From Nitrospirae bacterium CG2_30_53_67 (GTDB lineage Bacteria; CG2-30-53-67), in contig MNYV01000125.1 of NCBI GenBank assembly GCA_001873285.1, positions 1 through 35,298 on the forward strand: DNA of 35,298 nt, given 5' to 3'. This document shows positions 1-35,089 of this stretch, piece by piece (the stretch's first letter is position 1; each line of letters opens with the position of its first letter). A program made the translations under genes and the position numbers. The notes beneath the pieces are model-generated. The model worked only from the letters and a program-made list of their open reading frames with translations. It did not search any database and had not been told where the DNA came from.

Positions 1-49
1 GGCGGTCTTTGTCGGCCGGACCCGGCTGATTGATAATGTTCTGGTTCAT
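1..49 (-). CDS. Possible 5' end of a gene leaving the window
   Basis: On the minus strand an ATG at 49-47 opens a reading frame without stops to the left edge (about 16 codons, starting MNQNIINQPGPADKDR). It lies downstream of maf in the same direction, so it could be the next gene of that transcript. The only ribosome-binding-like sequence is AAGG directly against the ATG, at the edge of the foldback element, and the frame is also open further upstream. Too short to identify. Confidence 0.3.
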   Translation of the reverse strand, partial: MNQNIINQPGPADKDR

Positions 50-53
50 CCTT

Positions 54-217
54 AGTGGTCCTGTTCGTAAATATGGTAACGTACCGAGAGGGTCGTAGGG
101 CGGTCTCATCAAGGCGCGCGACTGAGGTGTACCCCTGTGGTACGCCGCAAGGAGCGGAACGCTGAAGAGACCGCCCTACGGCACTCGAATGCGACCGTAT
201 TTACGAATAGGGCCACT
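54..217 (+). repeat. Foldback (MITE-like) element, copy 1
   Basis: A 164-bp element whose two ends are long imperfect inverted repeats (54-107 against 167-217, both ending AGTGG/CCACT). Between them is a smaller hairpin (GGTGTACC / GGTACGCC, closing through a G:U pair) and a conserved stretch around GCCGCAAGGAGCGGAACG. The right end stops 6 bases from the maf stop codon. A longer copy is at 10763-10948 and a deleted one at 5060-5122. No coding capacity. It could be a non-autonomous mobile element or a structured RNA or terminator-like repeat. Confidence 0.85.
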
Positions 218-222
218 TAGAA

Positions 223-798
223 TCAGAGGATCCTTACTCCCATCTCAGAAAGCATCTCGGTGAGCTTCATCATGGGAAGACCAACCACGTTGGTATAGCA
301 GCCTTGGATCCTTCGTACCAAGAGCATCCCCTTCCCCTGGATTCCGTAGGCGCCGGCCTTGTCCATGGGTTCACCGGTCGAGATGTAAGCCGAGATCTCC
401 CGGTCGGTCATCTCTTTGAAGAAGACCCGCGTGGTCTCTTGGCCGGTCATCATCTTGCCGCTTTCTGCTTCGATCAGGACCAGCGCCGTGATGACCTCAT
501 GGGACCTTCCGGAAAGTCTGCGCAGCATTTGGAATGCATCTTCCGGATCCTTGGGCTTGCCGAGAATCTCCCCGTCCAAGACAACGATGGTATCCGCTCC
601 GATGACGATCCCGGACGTAAGCCGGGAAGCCACGTCAGCCGCCTTTTCCCCGGCCAGGGTCCGTGCAACCTCAAGAGGCGATAAGCCGTCTTGATGCTCT
701 TCCTCAACGGAGCTGGGAATCACCTCAAAACGCAGTCCCACCTCTGCGAGCAGATCTCGACGACGCGGAGACGCGGAAGCCAGGATCAGTCTTTTCAT
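223..798 (-). CDS. maf: Maf-family nucleoside triphosphate pyrophosphatase
   Basis: A 191-residue protein, the normal Maf length. Maf proteins hydrolyse non-canonical or selected NTPs (dTTP/UTP types) to the monophosphate and pyrophosphate in the cytoplasm. The N-terminal signature SASPRRRDLL is present, as are the GADTIVVL segment with the catalytic Asp, the KP-x-D stretch, TTRVFF and the C-terminal DKAGAYGIQGKG loop. The start ATG is at 798. It stands alone on the minus strand, divergent from the M20 peptidase, with a foldback repeat directly after its stop. Which Maf substrate subgroup it belongs to cannot be settled by eye. Confidence 0.95.
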   Translation of the reverse strand: MKRLILASASPRRRDLLAEVGLRFEVIPSSVEEEHQDGLSPLEVARTLAGEKAADVASRLTSGIVIGADTIVVLDGEILGKPKDPEDAFQMLRRLSGRSHEVITALVLIEAESGKMMTGQETTRVFFKEMTDREISAYISTGEPMDKAGAYGIQGKGMLLVRRIQGCYTNVVGLPMMKLTEMLSEMGVRIL

Positions 799-1026
799 CA
801 GTATCCTTTAATTGACAAACCAATAAATTTTCTTTCCCATTCACACACCGAGCTCTCAGAATAATAAAAGTGCGACATCAAATCAATGGATTTTCTTTTT
901 TTTATTTTATGGGATGAATCTCATGGGGAAATATGTTATCTTTTCTTCAACGCATGATCCATATTACGGGTTGGCGCATGGGTCTTCAATCCTGCTCCAT
1001 ACCCTTTTTACAGGGACTATAAATTC

Positions 1027-2394
1027 ATGCCTTTAATCAACGAAAAAAGGTTGGACGAACATATCCGTTCCGTGAAGGAACCGTATGAAAAGAGTTTAGA
1101 ACGTTTGGTGGAAATCCCTACAGTCAGTTCCGACCCGGCATGCAAGCAAAATATCCGGAAGGCCGCGGTTTTGACGGCGGGAATCCTGAAATCGTTCGGC
1201 ATTCATGCGGAAGTTTTATGGACACCCGGCCATCCTGTGGTGATCGGGACCATGGGTACGAATAAAAAACATCGGACGGTTCTTATTTATAACCATCTGG
1301 ACGTGCAGCCTGCGGATCCATCGCAGTGGGACCAGGACCCATTCAAATTGACGATCCATGCCGGCCGATACGGCGGACGGGGCACGACCGACGACAAAGG
1401 CCCGGCCTTAACCGCCCTTTTTGCTGCAGCATACGCTCTGAAACAAGGGGTTCCCCTGAATTTCCGTTTTGTCTGGGAATTTGAAGAGGAGATCGGAAGC
1501 CCGAATTTTGAAAAAGCCATCCGATCAAGGAAAACCCTTCTCCAGGCCCATTCGATCATGGTTTCAGATACCGTCTGGGTCTTACGAAACAAACCCGCCA
1601 TCCCATACGGCATCCGGGGACTCCTGACCGCAAGCCTTTTTCTTGAAACCGGCAGCCGGGATGTTCATTCAGGATTGGCCGGAGGCGCGGCCAGGAACCC
1701 CATCGGAGAGCTTTGCAGGCTGATCACAGCGTGTTATGATCCTGTGACGGGCCGAGTGAAGATCCCCGGATTTTATGACGACATGCTGCCTCCAGGCAAG
1801 AAAGAACGGCGAAACTTCGAGGGGGTCGGCTTCAGGATTTCCGGCTTCAAGAAGGCGCATGGATTAAAGAAGATCCGTTTTGAGAAGACCGCACAGGTTC
1901 TAAACGCCATCTGGTTGAGGCCGACCTTCGAGGTTCACGGCATTGCAGGCGGATACACCGGGAAAGGGATCAAGACCGTGATCCCTCAAAAGGCAGAGGC
2001 CAAAATCAGCATGAGGCTGGTCCCGGGACAAGACCCGGGAAAAATCTTCTCTCAGTTTCGAGCTTTCGTAAAGGGTGAGAATCCTGACATCCATGTCCGT
2101 CCTGAAGCCTTTCTCGATCCCTATCTTTCCCCCGCAGATGGAGAGCACCTTCAAGCGGCTTCTGATGCCATGCAATTCGGATTTCAGAAAAAACCCGCCT
2201 TGATCCGGGAAGGAGGATCCATCGGGGCCGTGGTGAACCTAAATAAAATTTTTAAAATCCCTGTTATTTTCTTAGGACTCTCTCTCCCGGAACACGGGTA
2301 TCATGCGCCTAATGAATATTTTGAATGGACTCAGGTCACGGGAGGGATGCGAACCTTTGCACACTACTTTGAACGGATCAGCCGGATTATTTAG
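1027..2394 (+). CDS. M20-family metallo-dipeptidase
   Basis: A 455-residue zinc peptidase of the M20 family (ArgE/DapE/carnosinase-like). It should cleave dipeptides or related amide bonds in the cytoplasm. The two-metal site is visible: NHLDVQP (first His-x-Asp) near residue 90, the bridging Asp in GRGTTDDKGP, the catalytic and ligand Glu pair in EFEEEIGSP, the Asp of SDTVW, and the last His in EHGYHAPNE near the C-terminus. The dimerisation ('lid') domain lies between about residues 205 and 330. There is no signal peptide. The ribosome-binding site before the ATG is weak (CAGGGA). Length and motifs fit the dipeptidases annotated as M20/M25/M40 or Cys-Gly dipeptidase; the true substrate is unknown. 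Confidence 0.92.
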   Translation: MPLINEKRLDEHIRSVKEPYEKSLERLVEIPTVSSDPACKQNIRKAAVLTAGILKSFGIHAEVLWTPGHPVVIGTMGTNKKHRTVLIYNHLDVQPADPSQWDQDPFKLTIHAGRYGGRGTTDDKGPALTALFAAAYALKQGVPLNFRFVWEFEEEIGSPNFEKAIRSRKTLLQAHSIMVSDTVWVLRNKPAIPYGIRGLLTASLFLETGSRDVHSGLAGGAARNPIGELCRLITACYDPVTGRVKIPGFYDDMLPPGKKERRNFEGVGFRISGFKKAHGLKKIRFEKTAQVLNAIWLRPTFEVHGIAGGYTGKGIKTVIPQKAEAKISMRLVPGQDPGKIFSQFRAFVKGENPDIHVRPEAFLDPYLSPADGEHLQAASDAMQFGFQKKPALIREGGSIGAVVNLNKIFKIPVIFLGLSLPEHGYHAPNEYFEWTQVTGGMRTFAHYFERISRII

Positions 2395-2424
2395 CTGAGG
2401 GATCCGGATCCTGAAAGAACCGGT

Positions 2425-2859
2425 TTATCCCTTCTCTCTTTTTTGCTCTTGAACCTTGAGCCGGATCAGTTTGATATAGTCCATCACCCCGGCGATTTCC
2501 CGGTCCGGAAGATCCTCAATGATCTGAATGAGTTCTTCTTTCTTCCGGCTGAGTCTCGTATAACCGGGGATGCTCTCATGAAGCGAGCCGGGGAGGGGTT
2601 GCGCGCCTTCTCTCAAATCAGCGAGTCTTCGGTAATCCTCTTCATCCAGATACCCGGTCAATGTGTACAGGTAGGTGTAGTCCAATTTTAACGGCAAGGC
2701 CAGCTTTCTTAGGACCTGCGGGGTTGGGCGTTTTCTTTTCTTGTGGATGATCAGGGAGATCTCGGCTCGGGTCACGCCTGACAGGATCTCAAGTTTACGG
2801 AGTGACATCTTCGGACTGCGTCGTATGGCCTCCTTGATGATATCTCCCAGATTTTTCAT
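2425..2859 (-). CDS. XRE-type helix-turn-helix regulator
   Basis: A 144-residue DNA-binding protein. An N-terminal HTH_3/Cro-like domain (about residues 1-60) contains MSLRKLEILSGVTRAEISLI followed by a basic wing (HKKRKRPTPQVLRKLA). The C-terminal half is charged and probably helical, with no ligand domain I recognise. The start at 2859 (MKNLGD) is preferred because the domain begins there; an upstream ATG at 2886 would add nine residues but has no clear ribosome-binding site. It converges on the M20 peptidase. The split operator at 3377-3430 lies about 0.5 kb beyond its start and could be a target, but nothing in the sequence proves that. Confidence 0.8.
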   Translation of the reverse strand: MKNLGDIIKEAIRRSPKMSLRKLEILSGVTRAEISLIIHKKRKRPTPQVLRKLALPLKLDYTYLYTLTGYLDEEDYRRLADLREGAQPLPGSLHESIPGYTRLSRKKEELIQIIEDLPDREIAGVMDYIKLIRLKVQEQKREKG

Positions 2860-2971
2860 CGAGCAATTTTTTCCATTAAAATTCATTGATTTGATTTAAA
2901 AATTAAGGCTCTTCTCCCATGTAGTGGGTAAAAAGGGTTCGAGGATTCCAGGGTTCAAGGGTTCAAGTGAA

Positions 2972-3002
2972 CCCCGTTAGAGAGACGAGCTCTCTAACGG
3001 GG
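2972..3002. repeat. Perfect 13-bp hairpin
   Basis: CCCCGTTAGAGAG at 2972-2984 is exactly complementary to 2990-3002, with the five-base loop ACGAG. There is no T-run after it on either strand, so it is more likely an interspersed palindromic repeat than an intrinsic terminator. Confidence 0.8.
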
Positions 3003-3061
3003 TGAAATACTGAAACGCAAGCAAAATCTCCAGAGAAAAACACCGGCACCCTTAACCCCTA

Positions 3062-3215
3062 GTGTCGCGTCAACCTTGCAGTGCCTTTTGGTGTCACCCC
3101 CTCATCCTAACCTTCTCCCCATAGGGGAGAAGGGTTGTTTGAACGTCCTTCCCTTGGGGAGAGGACTGAGGTGAGAGGGAAAATGGGATACGTCATTTTA
3201 CACGTGACACGACAC
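3062..3215. repeat. CCCTCATCC/GGGGAGAAGG-type foldback repeat
   Basis: Terminal inverted repeats of 11 bp (3062-3072 and 3205-3215, one mismatch) enclose a perfect 10-bp stem with a 3-base loop (CCTTCTCCCC ATA GGGGAGAAGG, 3111-3133) and the flanking segments CCCCCTCATCC and GTGAGAGGG. The centre resembles a CCCTCACCCTAACC-type repeat that is widely scattered in bacterial genomes. No protein is encoded. Confidence 0.7.
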
Positions 3216-3376
3216 GAGGACCCTCGGCCTTTTATGTTTTAGCACTTCACTTGACCCCTGGAATCCTTGACCCCTTGACCCCTTATGTTTTCACCCACTC
3301 TTTTGGAGATGATCCAAAATTAATATAACATTAAAGAAACTCACGGAATATGAAAACCCCAATAGATGAACAATAA

Positions 3377-3430
3377 ATGGTTGACAATATAACTCCATAA
3401 AAGTATAATTGGATATATATTGTTAACCAT
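3377..3430. promoter_or_regulatory. Split operator flanking a promoter
   Basis: ATGGTTGACAATATA (3377-3391) and TATATTGTTAACCAT (3416-3430) are inverted repeats matching at 14 of 15 positions. The left arm covers the -35 box and the right arm begins at the expected transcription start. This placement is typical of a repressor-controlled promoter. The regulator is unknown; the XRE protein at 2425-2859 and the HTH protein at 3799-4998 are the nearest candidates. Confidence 0.65.
3381..3409 (+). promoter_or_regulatory. Consensus sigma70 promoter
   Basis: TTGACA at 3381-3386, a 17-base spacer and TATAAT at 3404-3409 give a full match to the sigma70 consensus. Transcription would start near 3416 and leave a leader of about 120 bases before the gene at 3536. 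It is the strongest promoter seen in the window and is embedded in an inverted repeat. Confidence 0.85.
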
Positions 3431-31712: not shown

Positions 31713-31812
31713 TTTGTATGTGCTGGGGCACAAGGATGTCAAGACGACGATCACGAATTGGGTTGCAAGCGAGATTGTGTTGATATTTGAATGGGTTGCC
31801 GATGGCTCGTAG
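31711..31812 (+). pseudogene. Fragment of an integron-type tyrosine recombinase
   Basis: One frame reads LLYVLGHKDVKTTIT followed by NWVASE. LGHKDVKTTMIYTHV is the conserved C-terminal block of phage and integron integrases, and the HKDVKTT form is typical of integron integrases. The block that would hold the catalytic Tyr (MIYTHV) is missing, and the frame soon reaches a stop (TAG at 31810-31812). Nothing of the upstream catalytic domain remains. It is a dead remnant lying just before two cassette-like genes and on the same strand as them. Confidence 0.55.
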
Positions 31813-31893
31813 AGACGTATTTATCGGTATTAGCTGGCAACGTTATATATAGCTAAAACAGCTGTCTATAGGTTTTTATACGGATCTGTATAT

Positions 31894-32703
31894 ATGGCCA
31901 TGAATAATATCGAACAAGAAGTAATTATTCTGAAAGCAGTCAAAGAGTTAATTGACTCAATGGTAAATTTTGAGCTGATGTCTCTGGAAGGAAACGACCC
32001 AGATTCAAATATCAGTTTCAAGTCAATGACTCACCAAATGTTTTTCAATATTATTCTGGTAGATTTCTTATCTTGTACTGACAAAAAAGGCCCAATTAAA
32101 CAAACGTCCTATTTGGGTGGTTTGCGCGTAATCTCAGATAGCCCAAGCTTTGATCAAGGAGATTCGATAATAGATTTAAAAATCGCAACACAGGAGTTCA
32201 AGGATTGGCTGGAACAGGAAGTTGAGGTCGATATTTGGTTACCTTCCATTGACAAGGAAACAAAGCTGAGTGTCACCAGGTTTAACTTTTTGAAAATGAC
32301 CGGTGATATATCGAAGCATAACTATCTTAGAGCAGTAGATGTGGCCGAAGAATTGAAAAATATTTTGGCCAAGAGTGGAGTTGACGTGGGGATAGAGGAA
32401 GCTTTATTGGCATTATCTGAATTTTATGAGCGTTTCCACACCGATATTCTAGGATACCACAGTAGCACAATCGCTGAGTTTCTTAACAATATAAGATGGG
32501 GCATTTACTATTACTTGCAGCCTAAATTCAAGAAAAGCATCGTTTGGGAAAGTAGGGAACCTCCCAAATACCGTTACACATATCCAAAAGACCTAAATTC
32601 TGAATTTGCCAAGGCATGCTATTGGGAATTAATGAATGAGGTTCGAAGTGAACCATATATGCGTAAATTCAAAGTAACGAAATGGTTAAAATTGAGATAT
32701 TAG
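31894..32703 (+). CDS. Orphan protein in a cassette-like unit
   Basis: A 269-residue protein with no family I recognise. It is soluble (no signal or membrane helix), AT-rich compared with the neighbourhood, acidic in its first half and basic at its end. The most distinctive stretches are the aromatic segment FLNNIRWGIYYYLQPKF near residue 205 and ISKHNYLRAVDVAEELKNIL near 140. There is no clear ribosome-binding site before the ATG (31894; a second at 31900). An attC-like foldback follows directly after the stop, so it is probably an integron gene cassette. Confidence 0.7.
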   Translation: MAMNNIEQEVIILKAVKELIDSMVNFELMSLEGNDPDSNISFKSMTHQMFFNIILVDFLSCTDKKGPIKQTSYLGGLRVISDSPSFDQGDSIIDLKIATQEFKDWLEQEVEVDIWLPSIDKETKLSVTRFNFLKMTGDISKHNYLRAVDVAEELKNILAKSGVDVGIEEALLALSEFYERFHTDILGYHSSTIAEFLNNIRWGIYYYLQPKFKKSIVWESREPPKYRYTYPKDLNSEFAKACYWELMNEVRSEPYMRKFKVTKWLKLRY

Positions 32704-32706
32704 GGA

Positions 32707-32797
32707 CCATAACAATTGTATTCACCAGACGGCGAGAAGCGTGGCGGCGCTGACGCGGCAAGTTCATTGGCGCCGCTGGTGATGCAGATCGTTCGAC
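32707..32797 (+). repeat. attC-like recombination site 1
   Basis: A 91-bp imperfect foldback right after the stop of the first orphan gene. The left arm (32708-32733, ATAACAATTG... CACCAGACGGC) pairs with the right arm (32772-32795, GCCGCTGGTG...ATCGTTCG), leaving A32729 unpaired as in attC extrahelical bases. The simple-site core is GTTCGAC (32791-32797), not the usual GTTRRRY. The right arm is repeated exactly at 33511-33534. Confidence 0.65.
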
Positions 32798-32813
32798 AAC
32801 AGGAGACTGAGAC

Positions 32814-33521
32814 ATGCCTCTCACAAGACAGGAATATAACGACCTAATCGCACGCAACGATGCGGAAGAGATATGTTTCATGTTCGACCCCACCCAGTGC
32901 AAGGATTTCCTGCTCAAGCTCGACAACGCTGAAGCTTTGTCGAAAACGGGCAAATCGCTCCGCTTCGAGTCGCGAGTCGTCCGGACCATCGTGCATTTTC
33001 TAGAGCCCGTTTCTCTGCTGGTGGCAATCGTTGCCGGTTTCGTATGGCTCAAGTGGTGGGGATTACTCATGGCGCCAAGTGTCTGTATTTTTTGGATCAT
33101 GATTAAATCGATGTCCTCAAGTGGCAGGCAGGGCATCATCGTCCCTTTCATTACATTTTCATTAGGAGTTGTCCTTATGGTTGTGTTTCGGGAACAAGGC
33201 CCGGCATGCATCACATTCATCCTTGCCCTGTCGCTGCTTTACCTTTCAGAAAAGATGCTCTATGCCCTTCCCGTAGTGTTTTTCTCATTTCTTGTTCGCT
33301 CGAATTACGAACTCGTGAACGTGGTGTATGACAAGCCGGTTGATGATTTCAACCGTGAGATGGACATCCCCCTGATGTGGCATGTTGAAACACCGGAAGG
33401 GAAGATTCCGCAGGCAAACCCGAAACTGCCTTCCCGACTCTTCTTGACGCTGTATGGTTTCTTCAACAAGGAATGCCGAACCAAGGCATTCAGCGGACGC
33501 AATAAACCGCGCCGCTGGTGA
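32814..33521 (+). CDS. Orphan membrane protein in a cassette-like unit
   Basis: A 235-residue protein with a soluble N-terminal 60 residues and about four hydrophobic segments (SLLVAIVAGFVWL, WGLLMAPSVCIFWIMI, IIVPFITFSLGVVLMVVF, ACITFILALSLLYL plus ALPVVFFSFLV) between about 65 and 165, then a hydrophilic tail. No family is recognised. GGAG lies nine bases before the ATG. The cassette would begin at the core site 32791. The last 15 or so codons (ending AFSGRNKPRRW) run through attC-like site 2, as often seen in integron cassettes. A longer minus-strand frame covering this gene is a shadow. Confidence 0.7.
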   Translation: MPLTRQEYNDLIARNDAEEICFMFDPTQCKDFLLKLDNAEALSKTGKSLRFESRVVRTIVHFLEPVSLLVAIVAGFVWLKWWGLLMAPSVCIFWIMIKSMSSSGRQGIIVPFITFSLGVVLMVVFREQGPACITFILALSLLYLSEKMLYALPVVFFSFLVRSNYELVNVVYDKPVDDFNREMDIPLMWHVETPEGKIPQANPKLPSRLFLTLYGFFNKECRTKAFSGRNKPRRW

Positions 33522-33536
33522 TGCAGATCGTTCGTC
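33475..33536 (+). repeat. attC-like recombination site 2
   Basis: A 62-bp foldback overlapping the 3' end of the second orphan gene. The left arm runs from GCCGAAC (33475-33481) to CAGCGGACGC (33491-33500), the right arm from GCGCCGCTG (33509-33517) to GTTCGTC (33530-33536), around an AATAAACC loop. A33497 is extrahelical, matching the position of the unpaired A in site 1. The core deviates from GTTRRRY in the same way as in site 1. Confidence 0.7.
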
Positions 33537-33606: not shown

Positions 33607-33622
33607 CTTTGAAAAAATTTTA
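33607..33622 (+). repeat. Target-site duplication, left copy
   Basis: CTTTGAAAAAATTTTA, identical to 35045-35060, directly flanks the insertion sequence. A second partial copy (CTTTGAAAAAAT) sits just before it at 33595-33606, so the target was already locally repeated. Confidence 0.85.
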
Positions 33623-35044
33623 TGTAATCCCAAAATGATAATGTCCTATTTGGCCAAAGTAGAAATGTCCTATTCTGAGTTATAATGTTCTCTTTTACAA
33701 GGAGGGCATTGTGACGGAAAAGGACATGATCACCATGAGCAGAAAGGAATCGAGGAGGCTTCACATTATCCATCAGGCACTGGATGAGAAGATCACGCAG
33801 GTTGATGCGGCATCGGTTGTCGGTCTCACCGACCGTCAGATGAGGAGATTGATCAAGCGAGTTCGGGAAGAAGGCGACGGAGGCATCTGCCACAGAAGTC
33901 GCGGCAAGACGTCGAATCACCGGATTCCCAGGAAAATCAAAGACAAAGCCCTCAAGCTGTATCGGGAGCGATACAGCGACTTTGGCCCTACCTTGGCCAG
34001 CGAGAAGTTGTTGGAGAGCCATCAGATTGCGTTAAGTGATGAGACGCTTCGGCTTTGGCTCAACCAGGAGGATGTTCCTTACAGGAAGCGCAAGAAGAGG
34101 GCCCATCGACAGTGGAGAGAGAGAAAGAAGCATTTCGGGGAGATGGTCCAGATGGACGGCTCTCATCATGACTGGTTCGAAGGCCGGGGCCCGAAATGCG
34201 TGTTGATGGGATACATCGATGACGCCACGGGGAATGCGTACGGCCGGTTTTATGGCTACGAAGGGACCCTGCCTGCCATGGACAGTTTTAAGCGGTATGC
34301 CCAGTGCTACGGCATCCCCCAGATCGTCTATTTGGACAGACACTCCACGTACAAATCCACGGCCAAGCAGACCGTGGAAGAGGAGCTGACCGACAAGAAG
34401 CCCCAAAGCCAGTTTGAGCGGGCCTTAAGTGAGCTTGTAATAAAGGTCATCCATGCCCATTCCCCGCAAGCCAAAGGGAGAATTGAAAGGCTGTTTCGTA
34501 CCCTCCAGGATCGGCTGGTCAAAGAGATGCGGCTTGCCGGCATCCATACCGTGGAGCAGGCCAATGAGTTTTTAAAAAGGTGGCTGCCCGTATACAACAG
34601 AAAATTCAGGGTCACGGCCGCAGCCGAGGCTGATCTTCACCGACCCGTATTGCCTGCTCGGGAACTTGACAAGATCCTCTGTATCCAGGAAGAGCGCACC
34701 GTACGGAATGACTTTACCATAGCCCACAATGGCAAGCTCTACCAGATCGAAGAGCGGGTCAAGGCGAAAAAGGTCATGGTGGAAGAACGACTCGACGGCT
34801 CCCTGCATATCACCACCCCAAGCCAGGATCTTCGATATCGGGAAATCACCACGCTACCGGTCAAACAAGGATCAAAACCCAGGGTATCAACTCAGAGAAA
34901 AAGAGGATGGACGCCTCCCCCTGACCACCCCTGGAGACGACCTATTAAACGACAGCCAGGAACAAAGGAGCAACTACATCTGACTGGCTAAAACCGGACA
35001 TTTCTATCTTGGTAAGAATAGGACATTTCTATTTTGGCTTTACA
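33623..35044 (+). mobile_element. IS1202-group (ISNCY) insertion sequence, complete
   Basis: A 1422-bp element with 5'-TG...CA-3' ends. The left end TGTAATCCCAAAATG... and the reverse complement of the right end TGTAAAGCCAAAATA... match at 23 of the first 28 positions. Further AATGTCC(TATT) motifs lie inside each end (33665-33673 and 34994-35003), as likely transposase-binding repeats. One transposase gene fills it. Perfect 16-bp direct repeats flank it. It appears intact and possibly active. Confidence 0.9.
33711..34991 (+). CDS. IS1202-group transposase (DDE)
   Basis: A 426-residue DDE transposase. The N-terminal 100 residues hold a helix-turn-helix (ITQVDAASVVGLTDRQMRRL) and a second DNA-binding region. 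The catalytic core (about 140-290) has the first Asp in MVQMDGSHHDWFEGRGPK, the second in IVYLDRHSTY and the Glu in SPQAKGRIERLFRTLQDRLV. These blocks are characteristic of the ISNCY/IS1202 group rather than of IS481 or IS3. It starts at a GTG with AAGGAGGGC before it and stops inside the right end region. The frame is intact from end to end. Confidence 0.95.
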   Translation: MTEKDMITMSRKESRRLHIIHQALDEKITQVDAASVVGLTDRQMRRLIKRVREEGDGGICHRSRGKTSNHRIPRKIKDKALKLYRERYSDFGPTLASEKLLESHQIALSDETLRLWLNQEDVPYRKRKKRAHRQWRERKKHFGEMVQMDGSHHDWFEGRGPKCVLMGYIDDATGNAYGRFYGYEGTLPAMDSFKRYAQCYGIPQIVYLDRHSTYKSTAKQTVEEELTDKKPQSQFERALSELVIKVIHAHSPQAKGRIERLFRTLQDRLVKEMRLAGIHTVEQANEFLKRWLPVYNRKFRVTAAAEADLHRPVLPARELDKILCIQEERTVRNDFTIAHNGKLYQIEERVKAKKVMVEERLDGSLHITTPSQDLRYREITTLPVKQGSKPRVSTQRKRGWTPPPDHPWRRPIKRQPGTKEQLHLTG

Positions 35045-35060
35045 CTTTGAAAAAATTTTA
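35045..35060 (+). repeat. Target-site duplication, right copy
   Basis: CTTTGAAAAAATTTTA, identical to 33607-33622 and directly adjacent to the right end of the insertion sequence. The next base begins a sigma70 -35 box. Confidence 0.85.
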
Positions 35061-35089
35061 TTGACGTCTCTCATTTACCCTGTTAATAT
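35061..35089 (+). promoter_or_regulatory. Promoter directly after the insertion sequence
   Basis: TTGACG at 35061-35066, a 17-base spacer and TAATAT at 35084-35089. It should drive the gene at 35158 with a leader of about 60 bases. The insertion sequence ends 17 bases upstream, so the promoter core is intact but any upstream activator site has been displaced. Confidence 0.65.

Follow-up and report, generated by a model that had tools for sequence, protein, structure and literature searches.

A probable decayed chromosomal integron remnant with GTTCGNC attC cores, a minority core type that appears to belong to the cassette

Introduction

In the accessible part of the work of Bouvier et al. (2009, PMC2727003) on sedentary chromosomal integrons, the conserved sequence of the attC recombination site is limited to the triplets AAC and GTT. 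The same triplet rule is restated in the available portion of an account that describes same-orientation integrons in Treponema (PMC3607928), and excerpts of a further paper report excision by the integrase IntI1 at the atypical core GTTATGA (PMC12901181). Groups of neighbouring attC sites that lack an integrase are termed CALIN (IntegronFinder 2.0, PMC9024848), a name for bookkeeping that carries no mechanism.

Here we describe a locus in which two such sites end in GTTCGAC and GTTCGTC. The window, meaning the whole stretch of DNA analysed, comprises 35,298 nucleotides (positions 1-35,298 of contig MNYV01000125.1, assembly GCA_001873285.1, forward strand). The locus is very probably a remnant of a chromosomal integron whose two cassettes carry genuine attC sites, with CGNC in place of RRRY at the four variable bases of the core; judging by sequence comparison, this core would be a minority type carried by the cassettes themselves. 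A first-pass annotation had instead proposed a recombination core specific to the lineage.

Methods

Integron integrase loci were collected using a seven-protein IntI alignment as query, which yielded 80 genome-contig loci and 80 viral-contig loci (IMG/VR). From these loci, plasmid references and relatives of the genome, 40 seed sites with strictly canonical cores at both ends were retained after orientation and the dropping of two doubtful sites. The seeds share a regular layout: after the left heptamer come nine bases, a six-base L'' box and an extrahelical A, and the mirror arm leaves nine bases ahead of the right heptamer. Of the 40 seeds, 12 fall into the largest register class.

Two covariance models were used. 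R1 was built from 14 whole canonical sites sharing one register, none of which has C at base 4. R2 is a core-blind model for which those 14 sites were trimmed to AAC...GTT, leaving bases 4-7 without influence. A scan for arm pairing between AAC and GTT had poor specificity when run without a core filter, with about as many matches in reversed controls as in real sequence, and was used solely to choose seeds canonical at both ends. A composite alignment with the loops removed was dropped because varying spacers put its register out.

Site counts in relatives are lower bounds, since the genome-wide profile search scored no more than 150 first-look candidates in each genome; it did not report the second site of the window. 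The contigs of relatives were picked with the canonical-trained model, a bias that should go against GTTC. For the core counts, 232 rows were reduced to 223 by removal of 9 duplicates, and 4 of these were left out for want of a readable GTT.

The two ends of a cassette were compared by setting the right core of each site against the reverse complement of the left core of the next site. This was done for 127 consecutive pairs of sites lying less than 4 kb apart.

Results

The features of the array and its surroundings, all on the + strand, are as follows.

31720..31752, +: candidate C-terminal scrap of an integron integrase, VLGHKDVKTTI (local alignment to the intact IntI of the same genome)
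31846..31894, +: candidate attI remnant (best local match to the attI region of contig C20)
31894..32703, +: cassette 1 gene, 269 aa (ORF)
32706..32797, +: attC site 1, 92 nt (R1 35.3 bits, E 2.1e-6; R2 38.3 bits, E 3.8e-10), with R'' CCATAAC at 32707-32713, L'' at 32723-32728, extrahelical A at 32729, L' at 32776-32781 and R' GTTCGAC at 32791-32797
32792..33530, +: cassette 2, 739 bp, bounded after the first G of GTTCGAC and of GTTCGTC, its own end core being GCCGAAC (sequence and cassette-matching rule)
32814..33521, +: cassette 2 gene, 235 aa (ORF)
33475..33536, +: attC site 2, 62 nt (R1 28.5 bits, E 1.1e-4), with R'' GCCGAAC at 33475-33481, L'' at 33491-33496, extrahelical A at 33497, L' at 33512-33517, extra GTG at 33518-33520 and R' GTTCGTC at 33530-33536
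33624..35044, +: insertion sequence at which the array ends or is interrupted (NCBIfam transpos_ISNCY_2, 403.5 bits against a cut-off of 250)
33711..34991, +: transposase ORF inside the insertion sequence (NCBIfam transpos_ISNCY_2)

Across the 35.3-kb window no Rfam family matched and no tRNA was found.

The three heptamers GTTCGAC, GTTCGTC and GCCGAAC stand where the first-pass annotation had read them. On its own, GTTCGNC occurs at chance frequency (18 occurrences in the window; 16.3 expected by shuffling), so the evidence must come from whole sites. R1, although trained on canonical cores alone, matches the window at sites 1 and 2 only, both on the + strand (E 2.1e-6 and 1.1e-4, 165 kb searched); the earlier concern that standard models may miss such sites is not borne out for this canonical-trained model. 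Run over the window and ten other loci, R1 returned six matches at E up to 5, namely the two window sites, one on contig C20 of the same genome, two in the genome G001 and one in G032.

Site 1 has the canonical geometry seen in the commonest seed class: a 9-base spacer, L'' CACCAG, the extrahelical A, L' CTGGTG and a second 9-base spacer. Its hairpin is modestly stable (z -1.67 and -1.19). The arms of site 2 are CAGCGG followed by the A, and CCGCTG, with three extra bases (GTG) ahead of the 9-base spacer; folded as + strand DNA it reaches z -2.79, and none of 200 shuffles was equally stable. The extra bases in the 3' arm of site 2 and its lower R1 score (28.5 bits) weigh against the reading.

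At 92 and 62 nt, both sites carry AAC (R'') and GTT (R') around an imperfect palindrome within the approximately 57-142 nt of attC, and both form the L''/L' stem with an extrahelical base and unpaired spacers, site 2 with its three additional bases. The consensus heptamers RYYYAAC and GTTRRRY are absent, the cores being GTTCGAC and GTTCGTC. GTTRRRY is not a strict requirement, because 43 of 83 sites found by the core-blind model break it and the accessible text of PMC2727003 limits conservation to AAC and GTT. On these sequence features, both are genuine attC sites with a minority core, and may still be recombined by IntI on the folded bottom strand.

At the 3' end the two sites are identical over 26 bases (32770-32795 and 33509-33534), while their 5' arms and loops are unlike. 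Shared 3' ends, differing 5' arms and loops, and the three unpaired extra bases in site 2 give the impression of a half-exchange, as if part of one site had been replaced. A search of the genome with the pattern of the shared 3' arm returned only the two sites and one match with three mismatches on contig C73.

The cassette 1 protein falls into no Pfam, PADLOC or NCBIfam family; homologs occur in 8 plasmid records, the best at 47.6% identity in Azotobacter. No Pfam, PADLOC or NCBIfam family and no homolog in the plasmid collection were found for the cassette 2 protein, and among 60 genomes searched its gene is present in its own genome only. The reading frame of cassette 2 crosses the left arm and loop of site 2 and reaches its TGA stop within the right arm (33475-33521), so the C-terminus of the protein is encoded by the recombination site.

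A start of cassette 1 at GTTATAT (31846) was considered and given up; the stretch there is similar to the attI region of contig C20. CCATAAC should be partnered by GTTATGG, of which just TATGG remains before the ORF, and this makes the left end of cassette 1 uncertain and probably decayed.

Traces of an integrase upstream of the array are weak. VLGHKDVKTTI aligns to the C-terminus of the IntI of the same genome over just 11 residues with a score of 50, where 100 shuffles reached 41 at most, and the whole IntI gave no match in the window by tblastn at E 0.01. The stretch 31846-31894, between this scrap and cassette 1, scores 39 against the C20 attI region, inside the shuffled range (maximum 45, mean 26.8). 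In the window no intI gene adjoins the array, as it would in a complete integron; the arrangement is that of a CALIN (at least two neighbouring attC sites without an integrase), with the sites 0.7 kb apart. With IntI and attI remnants this weak, the case for an integron in the window depends on the attC sites and on other contigs of the same genome.

The ends of the downstream insertion sequence match both ends of contig C135 of G001. A 17-base direct repeat, CTTTGAAAAAATTTTAT, at 33607-33623 and 35045-35061 flanks this ISNCY-type element and adjoins precisely the ends that the match to that contig indicates. The repeat looks like a long target-site duplication, such as those made by IS1202-type elements.

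Taken as a whole, the region looks like what is left of a chromosomal integron, a cassette array poor in integrase and interrupted by an insertion sequence, and the array appears decayed.

Contig C20 of the same genome encodes an intact IntI (TIGR02249, 485 bits against a cut-off of 265). Next, reading the same way, comes a restriction-modification pair, identified with PADLOC as a type II methyltransferase and a restriction enzyme, and then an attC site with the cores ACATAAC and GTTAGGC. Among the matches listed, further attC sites in this genome end in GTTAGCT, GTTGGAG and GTTACGC. In G001, of the same genus, the IntI is 81% identical to that of C20, and the two sites downstream of it end in GTTAGAC and GTTCGGC; GTTCG cores thus coexist with ordinary cores where an intact integrase serves the array.

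In the C20 locus (L005, G000:C20, positions 1-3400), the methyltransferase and type II restriction enzyme constitute the first cassette, and the attC site lies just ahead of the contig end.

Cassette starts and ends agree at bases 4-7 in 89, 91, 78 and 84% of the 127 pairs, compared with 51, 68, 48 and 52% for shuffled pairs and 59, 64, 50 and 53% between the left and right cores of a single site (218 sites). Ten of 13 cassettes starting with GTTC end in GAAC, out of 12 such ends overall (Fisher p 8.6e-11), and the remaining 3 have a non-C end. Cassette 2 of the window, GTTCGAC ... GCCGAAC, is one of the ten. The pairing described in the first-pass annotation, between GCCGAAC and GTTCGTC within site 2, does exist at 6 of 7 positions (one C.T mismatch), but a right core contributes its bases 2-7 to the following cassette, and GCCGAAC is therefore properly partnered by the GTTCGAC at 32791, which lies in the same cassette and also matches at 6 of 7 positions.

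The body of site 1 recurs in G003, a genome of the same family. One copy there (contig C20 of G003) is 85% identical over 86 bases and has the cores GCCGAAC and GTTCGCA; a second stretch (G003:C50) is 88% identical over 68 bases and ends in GTTATGC. Near-identical site bodies with different right cores lead to the same point as the end-matching: the heptamer belongs to the cassette, not to the lineage or the site body. An Acidobacteria array (L064) contains two adjacent GTTCG cassettes followed by GTTAG cassettes.

Two details from these loci may be recorded separately. The G003:C50 stretch (L219, 1591-1658) combines its GTTATGC end with a diverged 5' arm, and is possibly a half-site remaining from a rearrangement. 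In L064, the site at 2825-2882 has the right core GTAAGAT, though the same cassette ends in ATCTAAC and GTTAGAT would be expected; this is a mutated GTT, recognisable solely by the cassette-matching rule.

Base 4 was then counted with R2. This genome and its relatives in the class gave at least 23 matches, 21 with a readable GTT; among these 21 sites listed, C stands at base 4 in 9, with A in 8 and G in 4, and 3 have the full GTTRRRY, counts that carry some noise because some of the relatives' matches are weak (E up to 0.13). At 83 other IntI loci (80 genome contigs and 3 plasmids) there were 85 matches, 83 of them readable, with A in 62, G in 15 and C in 6; GTTRRRY is complete in 40 and broken in 43. 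The 80 viral-contig loci gave 124 matches, of which 115 were readable once duplicates were taken out (A 73, G 33, C 9; full GTTRRRY in 49). Carriers of GTTC elsewhere include Acidobacteria (L062, L064), cyanobacteria (L050, L080) and viral contigs (L175, L122, L136, L185).

C at base 4 is accordingly more frequent in the class than elsewhere (9/21 against 15/198, p 6e-5), also when the window is left out (7/19, Fisher p 0.001) and at E up to 1e-6 with the window left out (4/11 against 7/129, p 0.005), an enrichment that rests on six non-independent genomes. GTTC is a widespread minority type across several phyla, moderately enriched in the class of this genome, and the GTTCG core is a natural variant and no new kind of recombination signal.

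Discussion

The enrichment of base-4 C, in all three forms of the count, speaks for an adaptation of the lineage, in which the integrases of the class had shifted their preference to GTTC and GTTCGNC was becoming a clade-specific core. We regard this as unlikely. GTTA and GTTG cores persist in the genomes concerned, some of them beside an intact IntI; GTTCG cassettes are found in unrelated integrons; and the class sites, drawn from six genomes, are not independent. Of the lineage-specific core proposed in the first-pass annotation, the enrichment stands and the specificity falls: the genome itself also has ends in GTTAGGC, GTTAGCT, GTTGGAG and GTTACGC, G001 mixes two core types in one array, and GTTCG is present in Acidobacteria, cyanobacteria and integrons on viral contigs. 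A version in which the integrase of the class and its cassettes have drifted together to GTTC, base 4 acting as a soft compatibility tag that biases cassette capture and retention, is quite improbable.

The broken array, with IntI and attI remnants that are weak at best and an insertion sequence downstream, might also suggest simple mutants, their cores having decayed from GTTRRRY after loss of the integrase. Such decay is very improbable here, given that the start and the end of cassette 2 share the same C/G change, that the homologous site in G003 has GCCGAAC and GTTCGCA ends, and that GTTCG pairs recur in other IntI-bearing arrays. The first-pass annotation had reasoned that ordinary cores at the same positions in related arrays would mark the window sites as mutants, and G003, of a related genus, offers one case of each kind, the 88% identical body being followed by GTTATGC and the other copy by GTTCGCA. 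Its view that the departure is systematic and not random decay holds, as both ends of cassette 2 carry it and the matching recurs in unrelated arrays. Finally, that the sites are not attC at all, but hairpins at gene 3' ends that arose by chance or act as terminators, is scarcely credible: the chance frequency of GTTCGNC alone and the modest stability of the site 1 hairpin (z -1.67, -1.19) would fit, against which stand the model E-values of 2e-6 and 1e-4 with no further match in the window, the spacer and extrahelical-base geometry, and the homologous site bodies in G003.

A chromosomal integron remnant with cassette-borne minority cores is also compatible with the published reaction. IntI is described as cleaving the bottom strand, in its folded form, between bases 1 and 2 of the right-hand core; only AAC/GTT and the hairpin shape would then be strictly needed. 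The remaining four heptamer bases would move with each cassette, and pairing in the folded site would keep the two copies at the cassette ends complementary, as the end-matching suggests. With AAC/GTT and the hairpin kept, and pairing preserved by complementary changes at the ends, GTTCGNC would need no new mechanism. We infer that both sites were probably made by the C20 IntI or a close relative, and, from their sequence, they may still recombine.

Outside clinical integrons the textbook GTTRRRY is better treated as a loose consensus, in that roughly one in two core-blind sites departs from it, with triplets and hairpin retained. Screens or PCR primers that demand RRRY would lose real cassettes. 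Matching of cassette ends, for its part, offers a simple, integrase-free check of cassette boundaries in decayed arrays. Among the papers listed by a keyword literature search, with most subscription papers outside its coverage, none was seen to describe GTTCG cores as a class.

Compared with known systems, the window sites are like the attC sites of sedentary chromosomal integrons, as far as the accessible part of Bouvier et al. (2009, PMC2727003) describes them, in having AAC and GTT, L boxes with an extrahelical base and an imperfect palindrome of 57-142 nt; they differ at core bases 4-7, which are CGNC and not RRRY, a stretch outside the triplets to which that text limits strict conservation. 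The one-way reading of intI and cassettes in C20 and G001 is like that of the same-orientation Treponema integrons in the available portion of PMC3607928, whereas of an integrase in the window no more than a doubtful remnant is left. By the sections of IntegronFinder 2.0 at hand (PMC9024848), the window resembles a CALIN, with two attC sites within 4 kb and no integrase gene alongside, yet is unlike one in that a weak IntI and attI remnant may persist upstream.
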